25,338 bases of DNA from a virus: IMG/VR virus record IMGVR_UViG_3300044213_000138, positions 1-25,338 of that record; one strand, written 5' to 3'. A model generated the notes under the pieces. The model made no database searches. It was not told where the DNA came from and saw only the letters and a list, made by a program, of their open reading frames with translations. The position numbers and the translations under genes are program-made. Of the stretch, positions 273 to 22,662 are shown in pieces; position 1 is the first letter of the stretch; every line of letters starts with the position of its first letter.

Positions 273-1829
273 TTAACCTTGTGCCTTTTTCTGCCAAATA
301 GGTCTATCATCAACAGCAGCTGTTTGTGTTTGTTGTTGTTTTTGGTTCACAACTGTTGTATTTGATGTTGACGCCTGAGCGGTTTGTTGTTTCATATCAG
401 CTTTTGTGTCCCTATTTGTTTCGGATGCACTAGCTAATTGCGTTCCTGTTGCACTTGCACCCAATGAAGCATATGCACTGGCTTTTTGAAGTTGTAACTG
501 GTCTGTTGCTGCCAACTTTCCATTATCCATAACGTTATTAATTTTGGTCATATCTGACCCCAAATTTCCGTGTGCAACGTTACCCACAACCATTTTCAAT
601 CCAGACTGAAAATCTTTAATATTATTTAATGCATCAAGGCCTTTCTTTGCATTGCCTTGACCAATAGAGTTCATTAGATATGCGCCGGCTGCTTTAGAAG
701 CTGTTCCAAAATCTGCAACTATGGATTCAGGATTACTTTCTAGGTTAACACCAATAATGTCACCGATACTCTTATATACTTTTCTACCTGTGATTTGAAT
801 GAAACCACGGCCTTTGTATTTGAATCCGTCACCTGGTTGTGAATTTGTAGATAGTCCGTCATACACCATAGAGAAAAATGCTGGGTCACCTTTTGACCAT
901 TCATCTTGCAATACTTGAGCAGGAATTCCAGTATTAAATCCCATTTTCTTTGCAACATTACCACCAGGTCCTAATTGTGGAAAAACCTTATAGACATAAT
1001 CGATGCCTTTTGATTTTAATGTTTTCAACCAAGCGCCAGCACCAGCTTCTTTAGATTCAGGATTCAATCCAGATTCTTTTGCAGCAGTAGCAATGATTGC
1101 TTGAATTGCGTACGGATTTGTTATGCCAAGAGATTTCAATGCAGTTGAGAACTTACCCGCTTTACCTTTCATACCCTCATCCACTTTTTGTGCTGTTGCA
1201 GGTGGTTGTGCAGGTTTTACAGGTTCAACTTTCTTTTGTGTGGGTGGCGCAGCAGGTTTACCAGGTTCAGGAACAACCTGTTGAGGAACCGGTTCAGGTC
1301 TTTCTTGTACTTGTTTCGGTGCTTCTTGAGGCGCTGGTGCTGGTTGTTCAGGTGCAGCTTCAGGACCAACTTCTGCTTGTTTCTGAACTTCTTCTTTCTT
1401 TTGTGTCTCTGATACGGATGCAGCAACAGCGCCGGCACCAGCAGCAAATTTTACAGTACCAGCAATGGTGTCAAACAAACCACCTTTCTTTTTTTTCTTT
1501 CTTGTTTTTTCTTTTTTCTTTTGTTTCTTATCAGCTTCTTCTTCTTTTTTTTCTTTTTCTTCTTCAACTTCTATAAGAGCATCATAGAGTTTGTCATCAC
1601 CCCTATCTCTTTTCTTACGGAGTTTTTCATCATATTCACGAATCTGAAGCTCTAATTTACGTTTCGACATCATATATACGTAAATCTGACCCAATGCAGC
1701 TACTGCTGGTGTAACTGTGGTTGTTGTCTCATCTTTTTCTTTTCCAATAGAAGGTATGACCGAATTTTTCAACTCGGTCATTTTATCTTTTGTTTCTTCA
1801 GAAATGATTGGGACTTTTTTTTCTGCCAT
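273..1829 (-). CDS. Tail-associated lysozyme with GH19 chitinase-like domain
   Basis: This 518-residue protein probably cuts peptidoglycan during DNA entry or tail assembly. Residues 55-115 are extremely charged and helical, ending in a Lys-rich run. Residues 117-138 are a short Gly/Ala hydrophobic stretch, and about 153-212 form a Pro/Glu/Gln-rich linker. About 226-430 match glycoside hydrolase 19: the likely catalytic Glu252 sits in AKESGLNPES, and KYKGRGFIQITGR (337-349) is the family's signature loop, followed by a Tyr and the 'LESNPE' helix. The C-terminus is Gln/Thr/Ser-rich. gp5 in this window lacks the lysozyme domain that T4 gp5 carries, so this protein probably supplies that activity; this is inference. 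Its ATG overlaps the stop of the gp51-like frame (TAATG), suggesting coupled translation. A tape-measure/lysozyme hybrid is an alternative, but the helical part is short for that. Confidence 0.87.
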   Translation of the reverse strand: MAEKKVPIISEETKDKMTELKNSVIPSIGKEKDETTTTVTPAVAALGQIYVYMMSKRKLELQIREYDEKLRKKRDRGDDKLYDALIEVEEEKEKKEEEADKKQKKKEKTRKKKKKGGLFDTIAGTVKFAAGAGAVAASVSETQKKEEVQKQAEVGPEAAPEQPAPAPQEAPKQVQERPEPVPQQVVPEPGKPAAPPTQKKVEPVKPAQPPATAQKVDEGMKGKAGKFSTALKSLGITNPYAIQAIIATAAKESGLNPESKEAGAGAWLKTLKSKGIDYVYKVFPQLGPGGNVAKKMGFNTGIPAQVLQDEWSKGDPAFFSMVYDGLSTNSQPGDGFKYKGRGFIQITGRKVYKSIGDIIGVNLESNPESIVADFGTASKAAGAYLMNSIGQGNAKKGLDALNNIKDFQSGLKMVVGNVAHGNLGSDMTKINNVMDNGKLAATDQLQLQKASAYASLGASATGTQLASASETNRDTKADMKQQTAQASTSNTTVVNQKQQQTQTAAVDDRPIWQKKAQG

Positions 1830-2029
1830 TATCGTTTACTTTGTCGTTCTCGTATCTTTTGGTTTTCTTTTTCAATATACTGAATCAACATAGTAACGTA
1901 AATATCACGTTCCCATGGCAACATATTCTCAAGTTCAGTTAAACTATATTTGTGGTGTTGTATCAAAGAGAAATTAGTTCGGTAGTAATTTTCCAAATTT
2001 TCATGACGAAGTGTTAACCGAAAAAATTT
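1829..2029 (-). CDS. gp51: gp51-like baseplate hub assembly protein, probably made only as a -1 frameshift extension of gp26
   Basis: This frame lies -1 relative to gp26 and overlaps its 3' end. It encodes about 63 residues with the pattern NYYRTNFSLIQHH, then YSLTELENMLPWERDIYVTM, and a charged tail ending RERQSKR. The NF-HHK-SL-E--MLPWER-IYV- pattern is what I know from gp51-like hub-assembly proteins of aquatic T4-like phages and resembles second-frame tail-assembly chaperones. The frame is open back to a stop at 2057-2059 but has no ATG or GTG before the ATG inside ENMLPW, which would remove the conserved first half. The region of overlap with gp26 carries tandem slippery heptamers, so I infer expression by frameshift. 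The first coordinate given is the shifted AAA codon, not a start codon. The stop overlaps the next gene's ATG. Confidence 0.7.
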   Translation of the reverse strand, partial: KFFRLTLRHENLENYYRTNFSLIQHHKYSLTELENMLPWERDIYVTMLIQYIEKENQKIRERQSKR

Positions 2030-2733
2030 TCTAGACCCTCCACCTCCAATTCGTGTTCATATCCACACTTAGTACATTTAATATTAATTTTCTCTTTTAA
2101 CTCAGGAAGATTGTTATAAAATTCTTCAATCTTACTGAATTGTTGTTGATTCAGACCTTCAACCCATTGTACCAGTTCACCTGGTTGAGTTTCTTTTGCA
2201 TAGTAATACTGTTCACCATCATAGATGTACTCAATACTACTAGCAATCATATTGAAAGTTAAATCCGAAATGTTGTCATACTTAAACGAATCTTTAACAA
2301 CACCAAATTCTGGATACTTCATCTTAACAATAATCTTGTCGGTCAATTGAATCTCTGGATTCAATTCGTTGTTTGTTGGTTGAATCTTTGTTAGGTCAAC
2401 ATTTGTTTCCATGATGTTGCCACAAGTCTTACCTTCAACCTCATTATTACAACGATAACGAGCTTCAATCGATTCACCAACAGACTTAGCACGTAGGTTG
2501 ATGAAATAATATTCAACATCGATAATTGGCAATTTGTCAATATCAATGCCTTCTGTTAATGTGCAACTATCTAGTATGTCTTTTACGACAACGTTGACAG
2601 TTTCAGCTTCTTTTGCTTCCATTGCCATCAAAAGAATTTTCTGTTCTTTCACTAGGAATGGTCTAAACTTAATCTTCTTCTTCGACAAAGGCAATTCAAG
2701 TTCATATGATGGTACTTCAATTTTAGGTAACAT
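2014..2733 (-). CDS. gp26: gp26-like baseplate hub assembly protein
   Basis: This 239-residue protein matches the T4 gp26 family, needed to build the central baseplate hub. The N-terminus has the typical layout: MLPKIEVPSYELELPLSKKK, then a beta strand and FRPFLVKEQKILLMAME, then a helix. Cys95 and Cys104 plus Cys220 and Cys223 (CTKCGYEHE) look like a four-cysteine zinc site. The start is supported by GGAG 6 bases upstream of the ATG (complement of 2740-2743). The gene ends ENFFG-stop inside a slippery run, and a -1 shift would give a product of about 301 residues that continues into the gp51-like frame. It follows the gp54-like gene by 26 bases in the same leftward train. Confidence 0.85.
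   Translation of the reverse strand: MLPKIEVPSYELELPLSKKKIKFRPFLVKEQKILLMAMEAKEAETVNVVVKDILDSCTLTEGIDIDKLPIIDVEYYFINLRAKSVGESIEARYRCNNEVEGKTCGNIMETNVDLTKIQPTNNELNPEIQLTDKIIVKMKYPEFGVVKDSFKYDNISDLTFNMIASSIEYIYDGEQYYYAKETQPGELVQWVEGLNQQQFSKIEEFYNNLPELKEKINIKCTKCGYEHELEVEGLENFFG
2020..2029 (-). promoter_or_regulatory. Candidate programmed -1 frameshift site (A AAT TTT and T TTT TTC)
   Basis: In the gp26 frame the minus strand reads GAA AAT TTT TTC GGT TAA. It contains two overlapping perfect X XXY YYZ heptamers: A AAT TTT at 2029-2023 and T TTT TTC at 2026-2020. A -1 slip on either avoids the gp26 stop and enters the gp51-like frame. GGAGGT and GGAGGG lie 12 and 6 bases upstream of the first heptamer (complement of 2036-2047), a distance at which SD-like sequences stimulate -1 shifting in dnaX. 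No ATG or GTG serves the second frame. I found no strong downstream hairpin; TTCGGT could pair with ACCGAA across a long loop, which is weak. Confidence 0.62.
2036..2047 (-). promoter_or_regulatory. Internal Shine-Dalgarno-like doublet GGAGGTGGAGGG before the frameshift site
   Basis: On the minus strand the gp26 codons for Glu-Val-Glu-Gly read GGAGGTGGAGGG, two strong anti-SD matches in tandem. No usable start codon lies 5-12 bases downstream: what follows is the slippery run, and no ATG or GTG occurs in any frame there. A role as frameshift stimulator therefore explains it better than a role in initiation. That function is inferred. Confidence 0.5.
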
Positions 2734-15594: not shown

Positions 15595-18500
15595 ATGCTT
15601 AACTTTAACGTTGACCCATATTACGATGATTTTGACCCAACAAAAAATTATCATAGAATTTTGTTTAAGCCAGGGTATGCGGTTCAAGCAAGAGAATTAA
15701 CACAAGCACAAACAATTCTGCAAAATCAAATTTCAAATTTTGCAGATAATATCTTTTCGCAAAACACTCCCGTTACTGGTGGTCAAGTCACCACCAACTT
15801 GAATTGTTATTTCATCCGTCTAAACTCCACATATAATGGTACACCGGTTACTGCATCCGGTTTCTTAAATAAAGTTATTACTGATGCAACAGGCACAGTA
15901 CAAGCTAAAGTTATTGCAACAACAGAAGCAACAGGCACATCTTTAAATCCTGGTGACCCACCAACACTAATCGTTTCATATTATTCTGGTATACATTTCA
16001 CAGATAACAGCACAATTATTCCTGTAGACGGAACAAACATTGGTGCAACTGTTGTCACATCAACATTAACTGTACCATCAACAGGTCTATCATCAACAGC
16101 TTCTATTGCAAAGGGTGTTTTCTACATCGTTCGTGGTTATTCTGTATCTGATACCGCAAATGCTGATGGCACATATAACAAATATTCTGTTGGTAACTTT
16201 GTACAAGCCAATCCACAAACAATTGTTCTAAACAAATACTCTAATTCTCCATCATACAGAATTGGTCTATTGATTACTGAAACTATTGCAGACTTCATCA
16301 ACGATTCGTCATTGTTGGATCCTGCCGTTGGTGCATCCAACTATCAAGCACCAGGTGCAGACCGTTACCAAATTAACCTATCACTATCCACATTACCATT
16401 GACTTTGGGTAATGATGATGGATTTATTGAGTTGGTTAGAATCGTTAATGGTCAAATCGTTAAACAAATTGATAATACAGTTTACTCTGTTATCGATGAT
16501 TATTTTGCAAAACGTGATTATGAAACAAACGGCGACTACATCGTTAAAGATTTCAAACTAACACCTTCCGCTAACGGTACAATGGATACCAATAATACTG
16601 GTACCGTTATCAATCCAAACAAATGGGACTTGAGTGTTGGTAAAGGTATTGCTTATGTTCGTGGTTATCGTATTGAGAATCAAGCTCAACAATTGTTGAC
16701 TTCAAACAGAGCACGTGCAACAAACACAATCCAAACCAATAATGGTTATATTGATTTCGGTAACTACTTTATTGTTGATACTCTAAGTGGTGTGTTCGAC
16801 ACTCCAACACAACCATCTGTTGACTTACATTGTGTGAGTTCATCGAACGTTGCATTGACTGGACAATCAGCATACAACTCTACCTTGGTAGGTACAGCTA
16901 GAATTCGTAACTTGAAGTATGTGAGTTCAAATGGTTCCAACACACAATCTTACATCTTCAATGCGTTTGTTTGTGACATTAACACCGATGTTTTATCTGG
17001 AACAGTAAACACAGCAACATCAAATACAATTACAGTTAATGATGTTGCGGGAGCATTCTCATCAATCAATAATGCTTATGACGGTGTTACTCTTAAACTA
17101 AGTTCTGGTTCCGACATTGGTGATATCAGAACAGTTACAGGATATTCTGTAAGTGGTGCATCAAAAACATTCACAGTTAATTCCAATTTCTCAATCAATC
17201 CAAATACCAACGACAACTTCTCGTTAATGTTTGGTGTTGAAAACGTTAATGCCATTGTCACACAAAACGGTTCTTATACAGGACTAACAGCTAATGCAAA
17301 CATTAGTCTTGCCGGAGGCGGCAAAAATGGTGTAACATACACAAGTCCAACAGTACTTCAAAGTGCTGGTTCATCAGAAATGATTTTCCCGGTTGGTTAT
17401 CCTTATGTTGCTAACGTTTCTGGTTCCAACTACTATTCAACAATGTTGTTTAGAGGACAGAAGTTCAACAACACAAGCAAAACATTGACTTTGACTATCC
17501 CCCAACAAGGTATTTCTTTTGAAGGACCTTTGAGTACTCCATTTAATGGTAATCAATTCAAACAATTGTTTACATTGGTGGACACAAACACAGGACAAAT
17601 TCTCGATTTTAGTAATCCAGGCAATACTGCAACACTAATTTCCAATACACAAGTGCAGTTTGCATCACCAACATATGGCACATTGACTGACAACATTGAT
17701 GTGTATGCACAAGTGTTTGTTTCTAATGGTGAAGGTTCTTCTGCTGTATTGAAATATAAGACTCTTATTTCTGGCAATATGACAACATGTGCGGCTCAGG
17801 GTTCATTTACTGCCGTTAATGCCAACGTTTCTGTTGATTTGACCACAGGTCAAGCTGTAATCAATAATGCTGTAATCGGTTCGCAAAAGATTTCATTATA
17901 TGTCACAGATGTTAAGTCCATTGCAAAAATTATTGACACAGGTTCCACATCAGTGAACCCATATGGTCAAACAATTTCTTCTTATAAAGACATTACAGGT
18001 TCATTCTCACTAGACAATGGCCAACGTGATAACTCATATGAACATGCAAGCATCACATTGTTGCCAGGTGTAACACCACCTAAGGGTAACATTCTGGTTG
18101 TGTTTAACTATTACTCACATTCTGGTGGTGATGGATACTTCAACATCCAATCATACACAAACGAAAGTTATTCACAGATTCCTTACTATACTGCCAAAGA
18201 TGGTATTGTATATGCTCTAAGAGATTCTATGGACTTTAGACCATCTAAACAAAACTTAGTTACAACAGGTGTATGGGAATACAACAATCAACCTGCATCA
18301 TCACCATACAATGGTGGTGCATTGTTGCCACAGTGTTTCACCAACTTTCAAAACAGTTACGCATATTACTTGGCAAGAAAAGACTTGTTGGTGTTGACTA
18401 AAGACAGTCAATTCAATATCATTGAAGGTTCACCTGCATTACACCCAATCGCACCTCAGGTGCCAAGTGGTTCAATGGTACTAGCTAACATCAACTTGGA

Positions 18501-21500
18501 TCCATACACCGCATATGTTCCAGGTGAAAACCCTGATGGTATTCCTGCTAACCTTTCTATCAACAAAGTTGTACACAAGCGTTGGACAAAACAAGATATT
18601 ACCGACTTGCAAACACAAGTTGACAATATGGAATACTATTCTGCCTTGTCACAATTGGAAGCTAGCGCAGCCTCAACACAAGTACCAAATAATTTTGGTA
18701 TCACACGTCCAAATTACGGTATTTTGGTTGATGATTTCGGCTCATTCTCTACAGCAGATTCTTCTGCACCAGGTTATGCAGCGAACATCAATATCCGTAA
18801 AAAGACTTTGAATCCGTTGACCTCTATCACCAACTTCCAATTACAAAACCCACAAGTTTTGAATTCTTTGGGAACATTGTCCAACTTCAATTCTTATACA
18901 GTTAACAGTATTGCTGGTACTCAGACAAACATATACACACTACCATACACAACAGCTAACATTGTTTCACAACAATTGGCAAGTAACACAATCAGTGTGA
19001 ACCCATTCAGTGTGGTTGTGGAACAAGGTTTCTTGAGTTTGAACCCACCGATGGACAACTGGGTTAATACAGTTGAAGTTCCATCAATTGCAATTACAGA
19101 CCCGTCATTGCAGTTCAACCAACAAGCTGGCGGTATTAACCTAACCAACGCAGGTGACTTTGCATCACTACCTGGTACACAAACAGTTGTAAGTTCTGCA
19201 CAATCTAGTTCTGCTACATTGTCTGGAACAAACTCAACATCCAACCCTAATGCATCATTCACTGCTGTACCTGCAGCAACTTATGTTGCACAAGCAAGTG
19301 GTCTTGCAACTGCACAATTGTCATCAGCAGCTTCTTCTTCATTGACAACTACAGATGGTTATGTGACTAACAATGCAGTTACAGCAAACATTAGACCACA
19401 AGAAATTATTGTTAGAGCTAAGAACCTATTGGTTAACTGTCCTGTCAACTGTTACTTTGATGGTAAAAACGTCAACCAATGGATGATTTCTCCAAACACA
19501 ATCGAATTGACTGGTGTTACTGGCACATTCAACCAAGATGATATCGTTGGTTTCTATGAAGCATCGGTCACACAGTTCTTCCCAATTGCACGTGTAATTA
19601 CTGCTTACAACTATCCAGGAACATCTAACTGGCGTCTATACGTTGCAACAATGGTTGGTCTTCCATCAACAGTTGCTTCTGATGCTGTGTTCCAAAATGC
19701 GTTCTTCGACATTAATGGTAACTACCAAGGTAAGACCGCATACGGTACAGTAACAATGAATGGTAATTCACTGTTCAACCTACACACCTCAGGTATCATT
19801 TCGAACGTTGGTGGTGGTTTTAAGAACTCATCTAATAATGCACTAGCATCCGTATCGAGTTACAAATCATTTGTTGTTAATGGTTGGTCAGACTTCTTGA
19901 ACAACTACGGTGTTTGGGGTGATAACAGTCACGGTGCTTCTTGGAGTCAATCAACATATACATTTACTCCAACAGTAAGTGGCACATACACAGTAAATTA
20001 TGCAGGTGGTGACATCTCTGTTACAAACTTCAGTATCTCTGGAGCTTATTCAGGAACATTCCCATCAGCAATTTCAACATCACAACAGTCATTCACTGTC
20101 ACACTGACAGCAGGAACAACCTACACAGTTGGTTGGAATCTAACCAATACTGGTGGCAGCGCTTACACAAGTCCTGCATTTGCTGTGACAATTCTCGACT
20201 CAACAAACAACCTTGTTTGGGATAGTTTGACACCACCTAACTTGACACCAGCAAGCGGCACAGTTTATTCTATGCCAAGTGGTGGTTCATTCTACATTGG
20301 TGCAACACAAGTACAGTTGGACGGAAGTGCATCTTCAACAAACAACATCTATGTTGGTTCACAAATAACTATTAAGTCTACTTACACCTATGTTTACAAC
20401 TATGGTGCTGTTTATTACCCACCACCACAACCATTCAGTGGTGACGGCGACTCAAACAACGTAAGTAGATATCAGGCTGCTGTTGCTCAATATAATGCAA
20501 CAATCAACCAGAACACAATCAACTTGCAGAACCAGACCATTACGTTGTCATCAACCACAACATATCAGTCAACAATTACTGCATATAACGGCACAACCAA
20601 GACTGCGACATTGAACACCAATTCACCAGTTAACGTGTCTATGGGTTACAACACACAATTTGGTTCAGTGAACTCTCAGTATACCATTAACGGTACTGCT
20701 GCTTCTGTAGCTGCAGCAATCAATACTGGTGGTGCAATTCCTGCCTTGTCTACAAACGAGAACGGTGAATTCGTTGGTATCTTCAACGTACCTGGTTCTA
20801 TGTTCTGGACAGGTCAACGTGTATTCAGAATCGATAATAGAATCAATGCAACAGACCCAACCTCTGCAACAACATGGGCTGAGGGTACATTCTATGCATC
20901 CGGTCTACAAACTACACAACAAAATGCAGACTTTGCTGCAACTGTAGACTCAACTGCAATCACATTCACACAAACAGGACAATCTGGTTACAACATTGTT
21001 TCACAAGTACCTAAGATTGACCCAATTGCACAAACATTCATGATTGACAAGACAAACTACCCTAACGGTATTTTCTTGAACTCATTGAAATTGTTCTTTG
21101 CACCATTCCCATCAGGAAATGCACCTAAAGTTCCTGTGTCTGTATACTTGTTGAACACACTGAATGGTTATCCAAACGGACAAGCATTGGCACACTCAAC
21201 TGTGACAATCTCTCCACAACACGTTAACACAACAACCAATCCACAAGTATCGAACTCTGCATCATACACATTGTTCAATTTCGATGCACCAATTTATATT
21301 CAACCTGGTGTGTTGTATGCGTTCGTTGTACAATCAAGTGATGCAAATTACAACTTGTGGTATGCACAACAGAATGAAGTGTCAATCAACTCTACAGTAA
21401 ATGGAGTTGCAACTAAGATTGGCCAGACACCATACATTGGTTCATTGTTTGAGTCACAAAACTCAATCACATGGACTGCTGACCAAACTAAGAACTTGAT

Positions 21501-22662
21501 GTTCGAACTAGACCAATGTCTATTTGCAACAGGCACAGCTAACATTCCATTCACAATTCCTAAAGGATTGCCATACAGAAAACTAGGTCGTCAAGATATT
21601 CAACACGGTCTAAGTGCAAACTCTGTTCCAAACGTATATTCATTGTATTCACAAAACTTGTTGATGGATGCATTTAATATTTCAACAACAGATTTTGTTC
21701 CAACAGGCACTTCAGTTGGTTACTCATATCAAACCACATTGTTGAATGGTTTCCAAGCATCTTCATCTCAACCAGTTTCTCCTGGTAAGTATGGTACTCC
21801 TACCCATGACAACGTATATTTGAATGATGGATTGGGCGAACGTGTTCTAATGAAGAATTCAGCTAACTCTTTCCAATTGTCAGCTACAATTCAATCAACA
21901 GATACTAACGTGTCTCCTGTATTGTCTGATGATGGTATTTCATTGTACAACATCACATACCACATCAACAACATGGGTATTGATGGTAACATTATCTCTA
22001 TCACCAATCCAGGTGCAGGTTATAATGCACAAACACTATCAATCAGTTGTTCTGCACCAGATGTAGGTACTGATTATCCAGTATTCGGATTCACATCAAA
22101 TACTGTAACTGGTGGAATCACATCAATCTACACAACATATCCTGGTTCTGGTTTCCACAAGACACCAACAATCACAGTAACAGGTGCAAATTCAACACCT
22201 GCTGTTGTAACTGTGCAAGGTGAAACATCATCATTTGGTGGTAACGGTTATGCAAAATATGTAACCAAGAAGGTTGTGATGGTTCCAGGTAACGATTCTG
22301 GTGATATGCGTGTATTCTACACTGCATACAAACCAGTTGGATCAGACGTTCTTGTTTATTACAAGATTTTGAGTTCACAAGATGGTCAGAAGTTTGATGA
22401 CCAGTCATGGCAACTAATGACCCAAACATCTCAAGTTGGAACATATTCTTCAGATAGAACAGATTTGGTTGAATATGAGTGCGCTCCAGGTATCAACAAC
22501 GTAGCTAATAACTTCTTGAGTTATACCAGTACAAATGGTGTTACATACAACAACTTCATTCAGTTTGCAATTAAAGTTGTATTGAAAACATCTGATAGAA
22601 CAAGTACACCATTCTTGACAGACATTAGAGCTATCGCACTACCATCCGGAACAGGATTGTAA
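15595..22662 (+). CDS. Giant DUF4815-type baseplate or fibre protein
   Basis: This 2355-residue protein is the largest here. The N-terminus, YYDDFDPTKNYHRILFKPGY, then VQARELTQAQTILQNQISNF and FSQNTPVTGG, is the signature of the DUF4815 family found in aquatic T4-like phages. Two later landmarks are ENGEFVGIFNVPGSMFWTGQ (about 1721) and DPIAQTFMIDKTNYPNG (about 1808), the latter opening a jelly-roll-like part with VSVYLLNTLNGYPNGQ and VLYAFVVQSSDANYNLWYAQ. Residues about 1420-1600 (FVVNGWSDFLNNYGVW onward) look like an inserted, aromatic-rich beta-sandwich. Residues about 2130-2210 hold the Gly/Tyr module seen in gp6-gp8. Position after gp8 suggests it replaces T4 gp9/gp10-type parts and attaches fibres; that role is inferred. 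AGGAAGAAG directly precedes the ATG. Confidence 0.82.
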   Translation: MLNFNVDPYYDDFDPTKNYHRILFKPGYAVQARELTQAQTILQNQISNFADNIFSQNTPVTGGQVTTNLNCYFIRLNSTYNGTPVTASGFLNKVITDATGTVQAKVIATTEATGTSLNPGDPPTLIVSYYSGIHFTDNSTIIPVDGTNIGATVVTSTLTVPSTGLSSTASIAKGVFYIVRGYSVSDTANADGTYNKYSVGNFVQANPQTIVLNKYSNSPSYRIGLLITETIADFINDSSLLDPAVGASNYQAPGADRYQINLSLSTLPLTLGNDDGFIELVRIVNGQIVKQIDNTVYSVIDDYFAKRDYETNGDYIVKDFKLTPSANGTMDTNNTGTVINPNKWDLSVGKGIAYVRGYRIENQAQQLLTSNRARATNTIQTNNGYIDFGNYFIVDTLSGVFDTPTQPSVDLHCVSSSNVALTGQSAYNSTLVGTARIRNLKYVSSNGSNTQSYIFNAFVCDINTDVLSGTVNTATSNTITVNDVAGAFSSINNAYDGVTLKLSSGSDIGDIRTVTGYSVSGASKTFTVNSNFSINPNTNDNFSLMFGVENVNAIVTQNGSYTGLTANANISLAGGGKNGVTYTSPTVLQSAGSSEMIFPVGYPYVANVSGSNYYSTMLFRGQKFNNTSKTLTLTIPQQGISFEGPLSTPFNGNQFKQLFTLVDTNTGQILDFSNPGNTATLISNTQVQFASPTYGTLTDNIDVYAQVFVSNGEGSSAVLKYKTLISGNMTTCAAQGSFTAVNANVSVDLTTGQAVINNAVIGSQKISLYVTDVKSIAKIIDTGSTSVNPYGQTISSYKDITGSFSLDNGQRDNSYEHASITLLPGVTPPKGNILVVFNYYSHSGGDGYFNIQSYTNESYSQIPYYTAKDGIVYALRDSMDFRPSKQNLVTTGVWEYNNQPASSPYNGGALLPQCFTNFQNSYAYYLARKDLLVLTKDSQFNIIEGSPALHPIAPQVPSGSMVLANINLDPYTAYVPGENPDGIPANLSINKVVHKRWTKQDITDLQTQVDNMEYYSALSQLEASAASTQVPNNFGITRPNYGILVDDFGSFSTADSSAPGYAANINIRKKTLNPLTSITNFQLQNPQVLNSLGTLSNFNSYTVNSIAGTQTNIYTLPYTTANIVSQQLASNTISVNPFSVVVEQGFLSLNPPMDNWVNTVEVPSIAITDPSLQFNQQAGGINLTNAGDFASLPGTQTVVSSAQSSSATLSGTNSTSNPNASFTAVPAATYVAQASGLATAQLSSAASSSLTTTDGYVTNNAVTANIRPQEIIVRAKNLLVNCPVNCYFDGKNVNQWMISPNTIELTGVTGTFNQDDIVGFYEASVTQFFPIARVITAYNYPGTSNWRLYVATMVGLPSTVASDAVFQNAFFDINGNYQGKTAYGTVTMNGNSLFNLHTSGIISNVGGGFKNSSNNALASVSSYKSFVVNGWSDFLNNYGVWGDNSHGASWSQSTYTFTPTVSGTYTVNYAGGDISVTNFSISGAYSGTFPSAISTSQQSFTVTLTAGTTYTVGWNLTNTGGSAYTSPAFAVTILDSTNNLVWDSLTPPNLTPASGTVYSMPSGGSFYIGATQVQLDGSASSTNNIYVGSQITIKSTYTYVYNYGAVYYPPPQPFSGDGDSNNVSRYQAAVAQYNATINQNTINLQNQTITLSSTTTYQSTITAYNGTTKTATLNTNSPVNVSMGYNTQFGSVNSQYTINGTAASVAAAINTGGAIPALSTNENGEFVGIFNVPGSMFWTGQRVFRIDNRINATDPTSATTWAEGTFYASGLQTTQQNADFAATVDSTAITFTQTGQSGYNIVSQVPKIDPIAQTFMIDKTNYPNGIFLNSLKLFFAPFPSGNAPKVPVSVYLLNTLNGYPNGQALAHSTVTISPQHVNTTTNPQVSNSASYTLFNFDAPIYIQPGVLYAFVVQSSDANYNLWYAQQNEVSINSTVNGVATKIGQTPYIGSLFESQNSITWTADQTKNLMFELDQCLFATGTANIPFTIPKGLPYRKLGRQDIQHGLSANSVPNVYSLYSQNLLMDAFNISTTDFVPTGTSVGYSYQTTLLNGFQASSSQPVSPGKYGTPTHDNVYLNDGLGERVLMKNSANSFQLSATIQSTDTNVSPVLSDDGISLYNITYHINNMGIDGNIISITNPGAGYNAQTLSISCSAPDVGTDYPVFGFTSNTVTGGITSIYTTYPGSGFHKTPTITVTGANSTPAVVTVQGETSSFGGNGYAKYVTKKVVMVPGNDSGDMRVFYTAYKPVGSDVLVYYKILSSQDGQKFDDQSWQLMTQTSQVGTYSSDRTDLVEYECAPGINNVANNFLSYTSTNGVTYNNFIQFAIKVVLKTSDRTSTPFLTDIRAIALPSGTGL

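Follow-up and report, generated by a model that had tools for sequence, protein, structure and literature searches.

A single gp26-like viral gene predicted to yield short and long tail-assembly chaperones through a conserved −1 slip site

We analysed a stretch of 25,338 bases of virus record IMGVR_UViG_3300044213_000138 (hereafter the window), whose minus strand carries a gp26-like gene and, in the −1 frame at the 3′ end of that gene, a gp51-like extension. Profile searches matched residues 8-238 of the gp26 product to PF12322 (1.3e-59) and the protein to PHROG_150 (4.6e-64). The 3′ end of its open reading frame (ORF) reads GAA AAT TTT TTC GGT TAA, a sequence that holds two overlapping heptamers in the gp26 frame, A_AAT_TTT and T_TTT_TTC (Table 1). 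The −1 frame is open from stop to stop for 75 codons (2056-1829, minus strand) and matched PHROG_634, 'baseplate hub assembly catalyst' (gp51), at 5.1e-31. A −1 slip at this site would give a predicted gp26-gp51 fusion of 301 amino acids (aa), the first 238 of which are common to gp26. The sizes given in a preliminary description of this DNA, 239 residues for gp26 and about 301 for the fusion, were borne out.

Table 1. Features of the gp26/gp51 locus in the window, with the evidence for each.
Feature	Positions	Strand	Evidence
gp26-like gene, short chaperone form (TAC-N), 239 aa	2014..2733	-	PF12322, PHROG_150, AlphaFold2 (AF2) model
TAA stop of gp26, one sense codon beyond the heptamer	2014..2016	-	sequence, junctions of relatives
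Slippery heptamer T_TTT_TTC	2020..2026	-	gp26 frame; T_TTT_TTN kept among relatives
Overlapping heptamer A_AAT_TTT	2023..2029	-	gp26 frame; not conserved, may contribute here
Shine-Dalgarno (SD)-like stimulator GGAGGG (proximal half), conserved	2036..2041	-	anti-SD duplex energy, synonymous bias at three codons
GGAGGT (distal half of doublet), not conserved, probably incidental	2042..2047	-	codon table of relatives
−1 frame extension, gp51-like, 63 aa counted from CGG	1829..2020	-	PHROG_634, synonymous excess, homology to T4 gp51 C-terminus
Downstream gene, 518 aa, probable tape measure, weak GH19/endolysin-like domain	273..1829	-	position; large protein 3′ of the chaperone gene in many relatives

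We gathered 178 junctions of this kind from viral contigs and isolate genomes and also grouped them into 97 clusters at 80% identity. Vibrio and T4 queries of the viral contigs yielded few loci, and the profile of the distant extensions (A2) was too diverse to scan DNA with. Because the loci are related, junction counts are not independent events, and clustering lessens the effect of kinship without abolishing it. The extension lay in −1 relative to gp26 at all 178 junctions. An in-frame T_TTT_TTN was present at 177 of them, sitting exactly 10 nucleotides (nt) before the gp26 stop in 173. The sole exception, locus L192, has lost the gp26 C-terminus together with the slip site and retains an intact gp51 extension, possibly through a natural deletion or an assembly error. 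The codon preceding the Phe pair of the heptamer was AGT, GAT, AAT, GCT or TCT, ending in T in 97/97 clusters. The first Phe codon was TTT in all 97 clusters (background 71%) and the second was TTC in 94 (background 29%). After the slip, the fixed C of the latter opens the Arg or Gln codon that comes next, so that it has a use in the fused product as well. The slip signal is exceptionally well conserved. Within the genes of the window, T_TTT_TTN occurs in frame only 4 times in 7,547 codon positions; given this rarity, a site of this type that lies beside the stop and is followed by a homologous −1 frame is unlikely to have arisen by chance, and the relatives keep it at 177 of the 178 junctions. 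An in-frame gp26-gp51 gene broken by an indel, through sequencing error or decay, would agree with the single frame of T4-type gp51, but it is refuted by the same frame relation in 178/178 loci, found in independent contigs and in isolates such as P-SSM2, phiM19 and Ah1, and we give it practically no credence.

Upstream of the heptamer lies a tandem SD-like doublet, GGAGGTGGAGGG (2047-2036, minus strand), with a gap of 9 nt between GGAGGG and T_TTT_TTC. With the E. coli 16S tail standing in for that of the host, the mean anti-SD duplex energy over the 97 clusters was lowest, at −7.75 kcal/mol, for duplexes whose start lies 15-16 nt ahead of the heptamer (background near 0, standard deviation 1.1). 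Codon choice at the SD-like element was biased as well: Glu was GAG in 63/88 (background 26%), Val was GTG in 20/28 (12%), Leu was NNG in 41/58 (31%) and Gly was GGR in 55/97 (27%). This synonymous bias points to selection acting on the bases themselves. The 9-nt spacing fits slippage, and the element is too distant from a +5 ATG, where one is present, to have the spacing of an initiation signal. In the dnaX design, an X_XXY_YYZ site is preceded at about 10 nt by an SD-like element. With GGAGGG at 9 nt the window shares this arrangement, but it differs from dnaX in having a U-run site, in belonging to a clade without a strong downstream hairpin, and in encoding an unrelated protein.

Next, we studied the coding properties of the extension. 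In the clade of the window (56 unique sequences), the synonymous share of single-base codon differences beyond codon 8 was 79-85% in −1, compared with 5-16% for the other two frames. Over codons 1-8 the excess was weaker (56% synonymous in the −1 frame vs 45% and 15%). The residue directly after the slip was Arg in 56/56 sequences of the clade.

The RNA after the heptamer was more stable than its shuffled versions across the survey (mean z about −1.8), 49% of the post-heptamer windows falling below −2 compared with 4-10% of control windows. The main source of this signal was the P-SSM2-type clade, in which a conserved 11-bp stem starts just after the heptamer. One of its pairs shows compensatory U-A, G-C and A-U, and its covariation was 0.116 vs 0.072 in shuffled alignments, with 0/500 shuffles reaching the observed value. 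A downstream hairpin was rejected for the clade of the window, where none was strong. These features also bear on whether the extra frame might be reached by transcriptional rather than ribosomal slippage on the A4T6 run. The junction does hold a homopolymer T run; six T's are, however, short for RNA-polymerase slippage, and the codon phase of the run, the SD-like element and the hairpin of one clade are translation signals, so that we regard slippage by the polymerase as very improbable.

Neither ATG nor GTG occurs anywhere in the −1 frame of the window (2056-1829), as the preliminary description had noted for the part before the conserved region, and an independent gp51 start was rejected there. 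The earliest possible start is a TTG 8 codons past the slip. The same description had read the junction as two perfect overlapping heptamers, a tandem SD-like doublet and a missing start codon, and had proposed looking for all three across relatives. Both heptamers are present in the gp26 frame, but what the relatives keep is T_TTT_TTN and the proximal GGAGGG. A_AAT_TTT was found in just 30/178 loci and was rejected as a second slip site, and the codon table of the relatives showed the distal GGAGG not to be conserved, so the doublet was rejected as a functional unit, the proximal half alone being conserved. The lack of a start codon near the junction extended to 32/97 clusters, and about half of the surveyed clusters, outside the clade of the window, had an ATG at or just after the gp26 stop.

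These start codons speak for a separate small gp51, initiated at the stop of gp26 either by termination-reinitiation or weakly from a non-AUG codon, in which case the heptamer would be incidental. An ATG lies at +2 or +5 of that stop in Vibrio, Emdodecavirus, Pootjesviridae and P-SSM2-type relatives, and existing annotations list gp51 as a gene of its own. Such a gene is hard to place in the window and its clade, where no ATG or GTG precedes the conserved part and the first TTG of the window falls 8 codons into conserved −1 coding. Where the ATG is at +5, about 24 nt separate it from the SD-like element, whose position suits the slip and not initiation, and in the P-SSM2-type clade the ATG is enclosed by the conserved stem. 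Separate initiation would also leave the fixed-distance T_TTT_TTN of 173/178 junctions unexplained, and T4 gp51 is a full-length fusion. We therefore consider it improbable, though less so than slippage during transcription.

To place the predicted fusion, we compared it with the T4 proteins. T4 gp26 (208 aa) and gp51 (249 aa) each match PF12322 end to end, and gp51 consists of a gp26-like domain followed by the same C-terminal extension in one frame; judged by sequence, the two are paralogues. The 301-aa fusion aligned with T4 gp51 across the junction (BLASTP, E=2e-6). Since gp51 is the paralogue that carries the extension, the phage of the window would get from one gene, by slippage, what T4 gets from two. 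Both share the protein family (PF12322, PHROG_150/634), a short and a long form and the C-terminal extension; they differ in that T4 has two paralogous, divergently placed genes and the window one gene with a −1 slip. The pair is present in T4, RB49 and AM101, and a single gene with T_TTT_TTC in Cinqassovirus Ah1, Ceceduovirus AS-yj, Schizotequatrovirus phi-ST2 and Citrobacter phage Ci1. In an unrooted tree of 40 proteins, T4-type gp26, T4-type gp51 and the single-copy genes were each split off by one branch. At one locus (L108) the T4-type gp51 match spans 746 bases, not a multiple of 3, and gene 51 appears broken or mis-sequenced.

The evolutionary order towards which we lean, with some reserve, begins with a T4-superfamily ancestor that had one chaperone gene with an SD-stimulated U_UUU_UUC slip. 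This arrangement would have been kept in Kyanoviridae, several Straboviridae genera, Emdodecavirus, Pootjesviridae and Menderavirus, one lineage gaining a hairpin and that of the window relying on the SD-like element alone. The T4 lineage would have swapped slippage for a single duplication, giving genes 26 and 51. That slippage came first is suggested by the breadth of the single-gene form; the tree, being unrooted, cannot show the earlier arrangement.

Altogether, we hold it very probable that one gene yields a short and a long tail-assembly chaperone by programmed −1 frameshifting, as the preliminary description had proposed for the gp26 and gp51 frames; T_TTT_TTC at a fixed distance, selection on the SD-like element, a coding −1 frame, the lack of an upstream start codon in a large part of the family and a fusion colinear with T4 gp51 all support it. 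Most ribosomes would stop at the gp26 TAA and release the 239-aa short form. A minority would slip one base back on T_TTT_TTC, aided by base-pairing between the 16S anti-SD and the GGAGGG that lies nine bases upstream, bypass the gp26 stop and append 63 residues to give the 301-aa long form. If lambda G/GT is a guide, the tape measure protein may then be coated by chaperones, many of them short and few long, which would also recruit tail-tube subunits. T4 obtains the same pair from two genes, 26 for the short form and 51 for the long one, the latter in a single frame.

Several observations weigh against this interpretation. Two related sites, U_UUU_UUA and U_UUU_UUU, shift far less readily in E. 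coli than A_AAA_AAG does (PMC5009743). The E. coli tail used for the duplex energies may not represent the anti-SD, nor E. coli the tRNAs, of the host. The window has no stable hairpin downstream of the heptamer (−2.7 kcal/mol over 40 nt). Clusters with an ATG at or just after the gp26 stop may express a separate gp51. Lastly, a −1 extension occurs without an X_XXY_YYZ site in Ackermannviridae, Vibrio phage D506 and Aeromonas phage TSW001, where gp26 ends in (A/C)TT TTC.

We then examined the fold of gp26. A single-sequence AF2 model was poor (predicted local distance difference test, pLDDT, 31), and an alignment-based model (pLDDT 89) was used instead. Against the PDB, four structures stood out for its residues 1-91, with Z of 5.5-7.7: 3fgx, YqbN 3klu, 2ob9 (the HK97 tail-assembly chaperone) and 5ir0; the entry ranked after them scored 2.7. 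Foldseek also ranked 2ob9 at the top, but only at a weak E of 0.68, so the modelled N-domain supports a tail-assembly-chaperone fold (HK97, YqbN) to a moderate degree. A sequence search of the PDB with the fusion returned nothing relevant.

The ATG of the downstream 518-aa gene overlaps the stop of the extension (TAATG). Its product contains stretches rich in Lys/Glu and in Pro/Ala, shows a weak GH19/endolysin-like match, and is probably a tape measure protein with a cell-wall-active domain. No profile match to T4 gp29 was listed for it, and no sequence link between the two was found. Elsewhere in the window, a single ORF of 2,355 aa (15595-22662, plus strand) lies 3′ of baseplate wedge genes.

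The strategy of the window would be that of lambda G/GT (Xu, Hendrix and Duda 2004), with a chaperone gene likewise directly before a probable tape measure gene and an N-domain resembling the HK97 chaperone; it differs in having T_TTT_TTC in place of the lambda site, extra gp26 domains after the N-domain and a conserved SD-like stimulator. The preliminary description was right to link the T4 pair to the lambda-type strategy, a link published in 2022, but had taken T4 gp51 for the downstream part only, whereas it is a 249-aa paralogue of gp26 with the extension. As relayed by PMC10885494 and PMC12846349, Vladimirov, Gautam and Davidson (2022, Virology 566:9-15) treat T4 gp26 and gp51 as tail-assembly chaperones. 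Citing that work, PMC10885494 states that some T4-like phages, rather than frameshifting, have separate genes for a short and a long chaperone, and PMC12846349 that the short chaperone genes of T4-like phages are known to contain poly-T slip sequences. By these accounts of the gene pair and the poly-T sites, the strategy was already known as a kind. GenBank MH165274 names both members of the pair 'tape measure protein assembly chaperone'. In Pakpunavirus/Vandenendeviridae, a different phage family from that of the window, a chaperone frameshift has a poly-T motif, GTTTTT, at the 3′ end of the short gene (PMC12846349), where the window too has a poly-T site; the likeness noted is one of motif.

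The single-gene version would be direct evidence that one chaperone exists as a short form, gp26, and a long form, gp51, and would make a clear case of programmed frameshifting in one lineage and a duplicated gene in another for the same protein pair. Several annotations shorten gp51 or leave it out, with no gene listed, for example, in S-CAM4, ACG-2014d, metaG-MbCM1 and Ah1; such missed genes could be annotated as ribosomal slippage.

Finally, six distant loci (L111, L117, L198 and L199, from Ackermannviridae or close to them, and L112 and L113) had a −1 extension with an MPWHL motif and no canonical heptamer. Their 0-frame ends in (A/C)TT TTC NNN TAA, with one further codon in L113. Candidate routes to expression in the heptamer-less loci are a single-tRNA slip on T_TTC or a restart at the stop. 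PHROG_1854 ('PmgB-like') was weakly matched by two gp26/gp51-like sequences, L113:2489-3241 (E 0.012) and L092:616-1365 (E 0.034). In P1, the gene for PmgB is located 5′ of that for the tape measure (PMC9024508); PmgB may be a distant relative of these chaperones.
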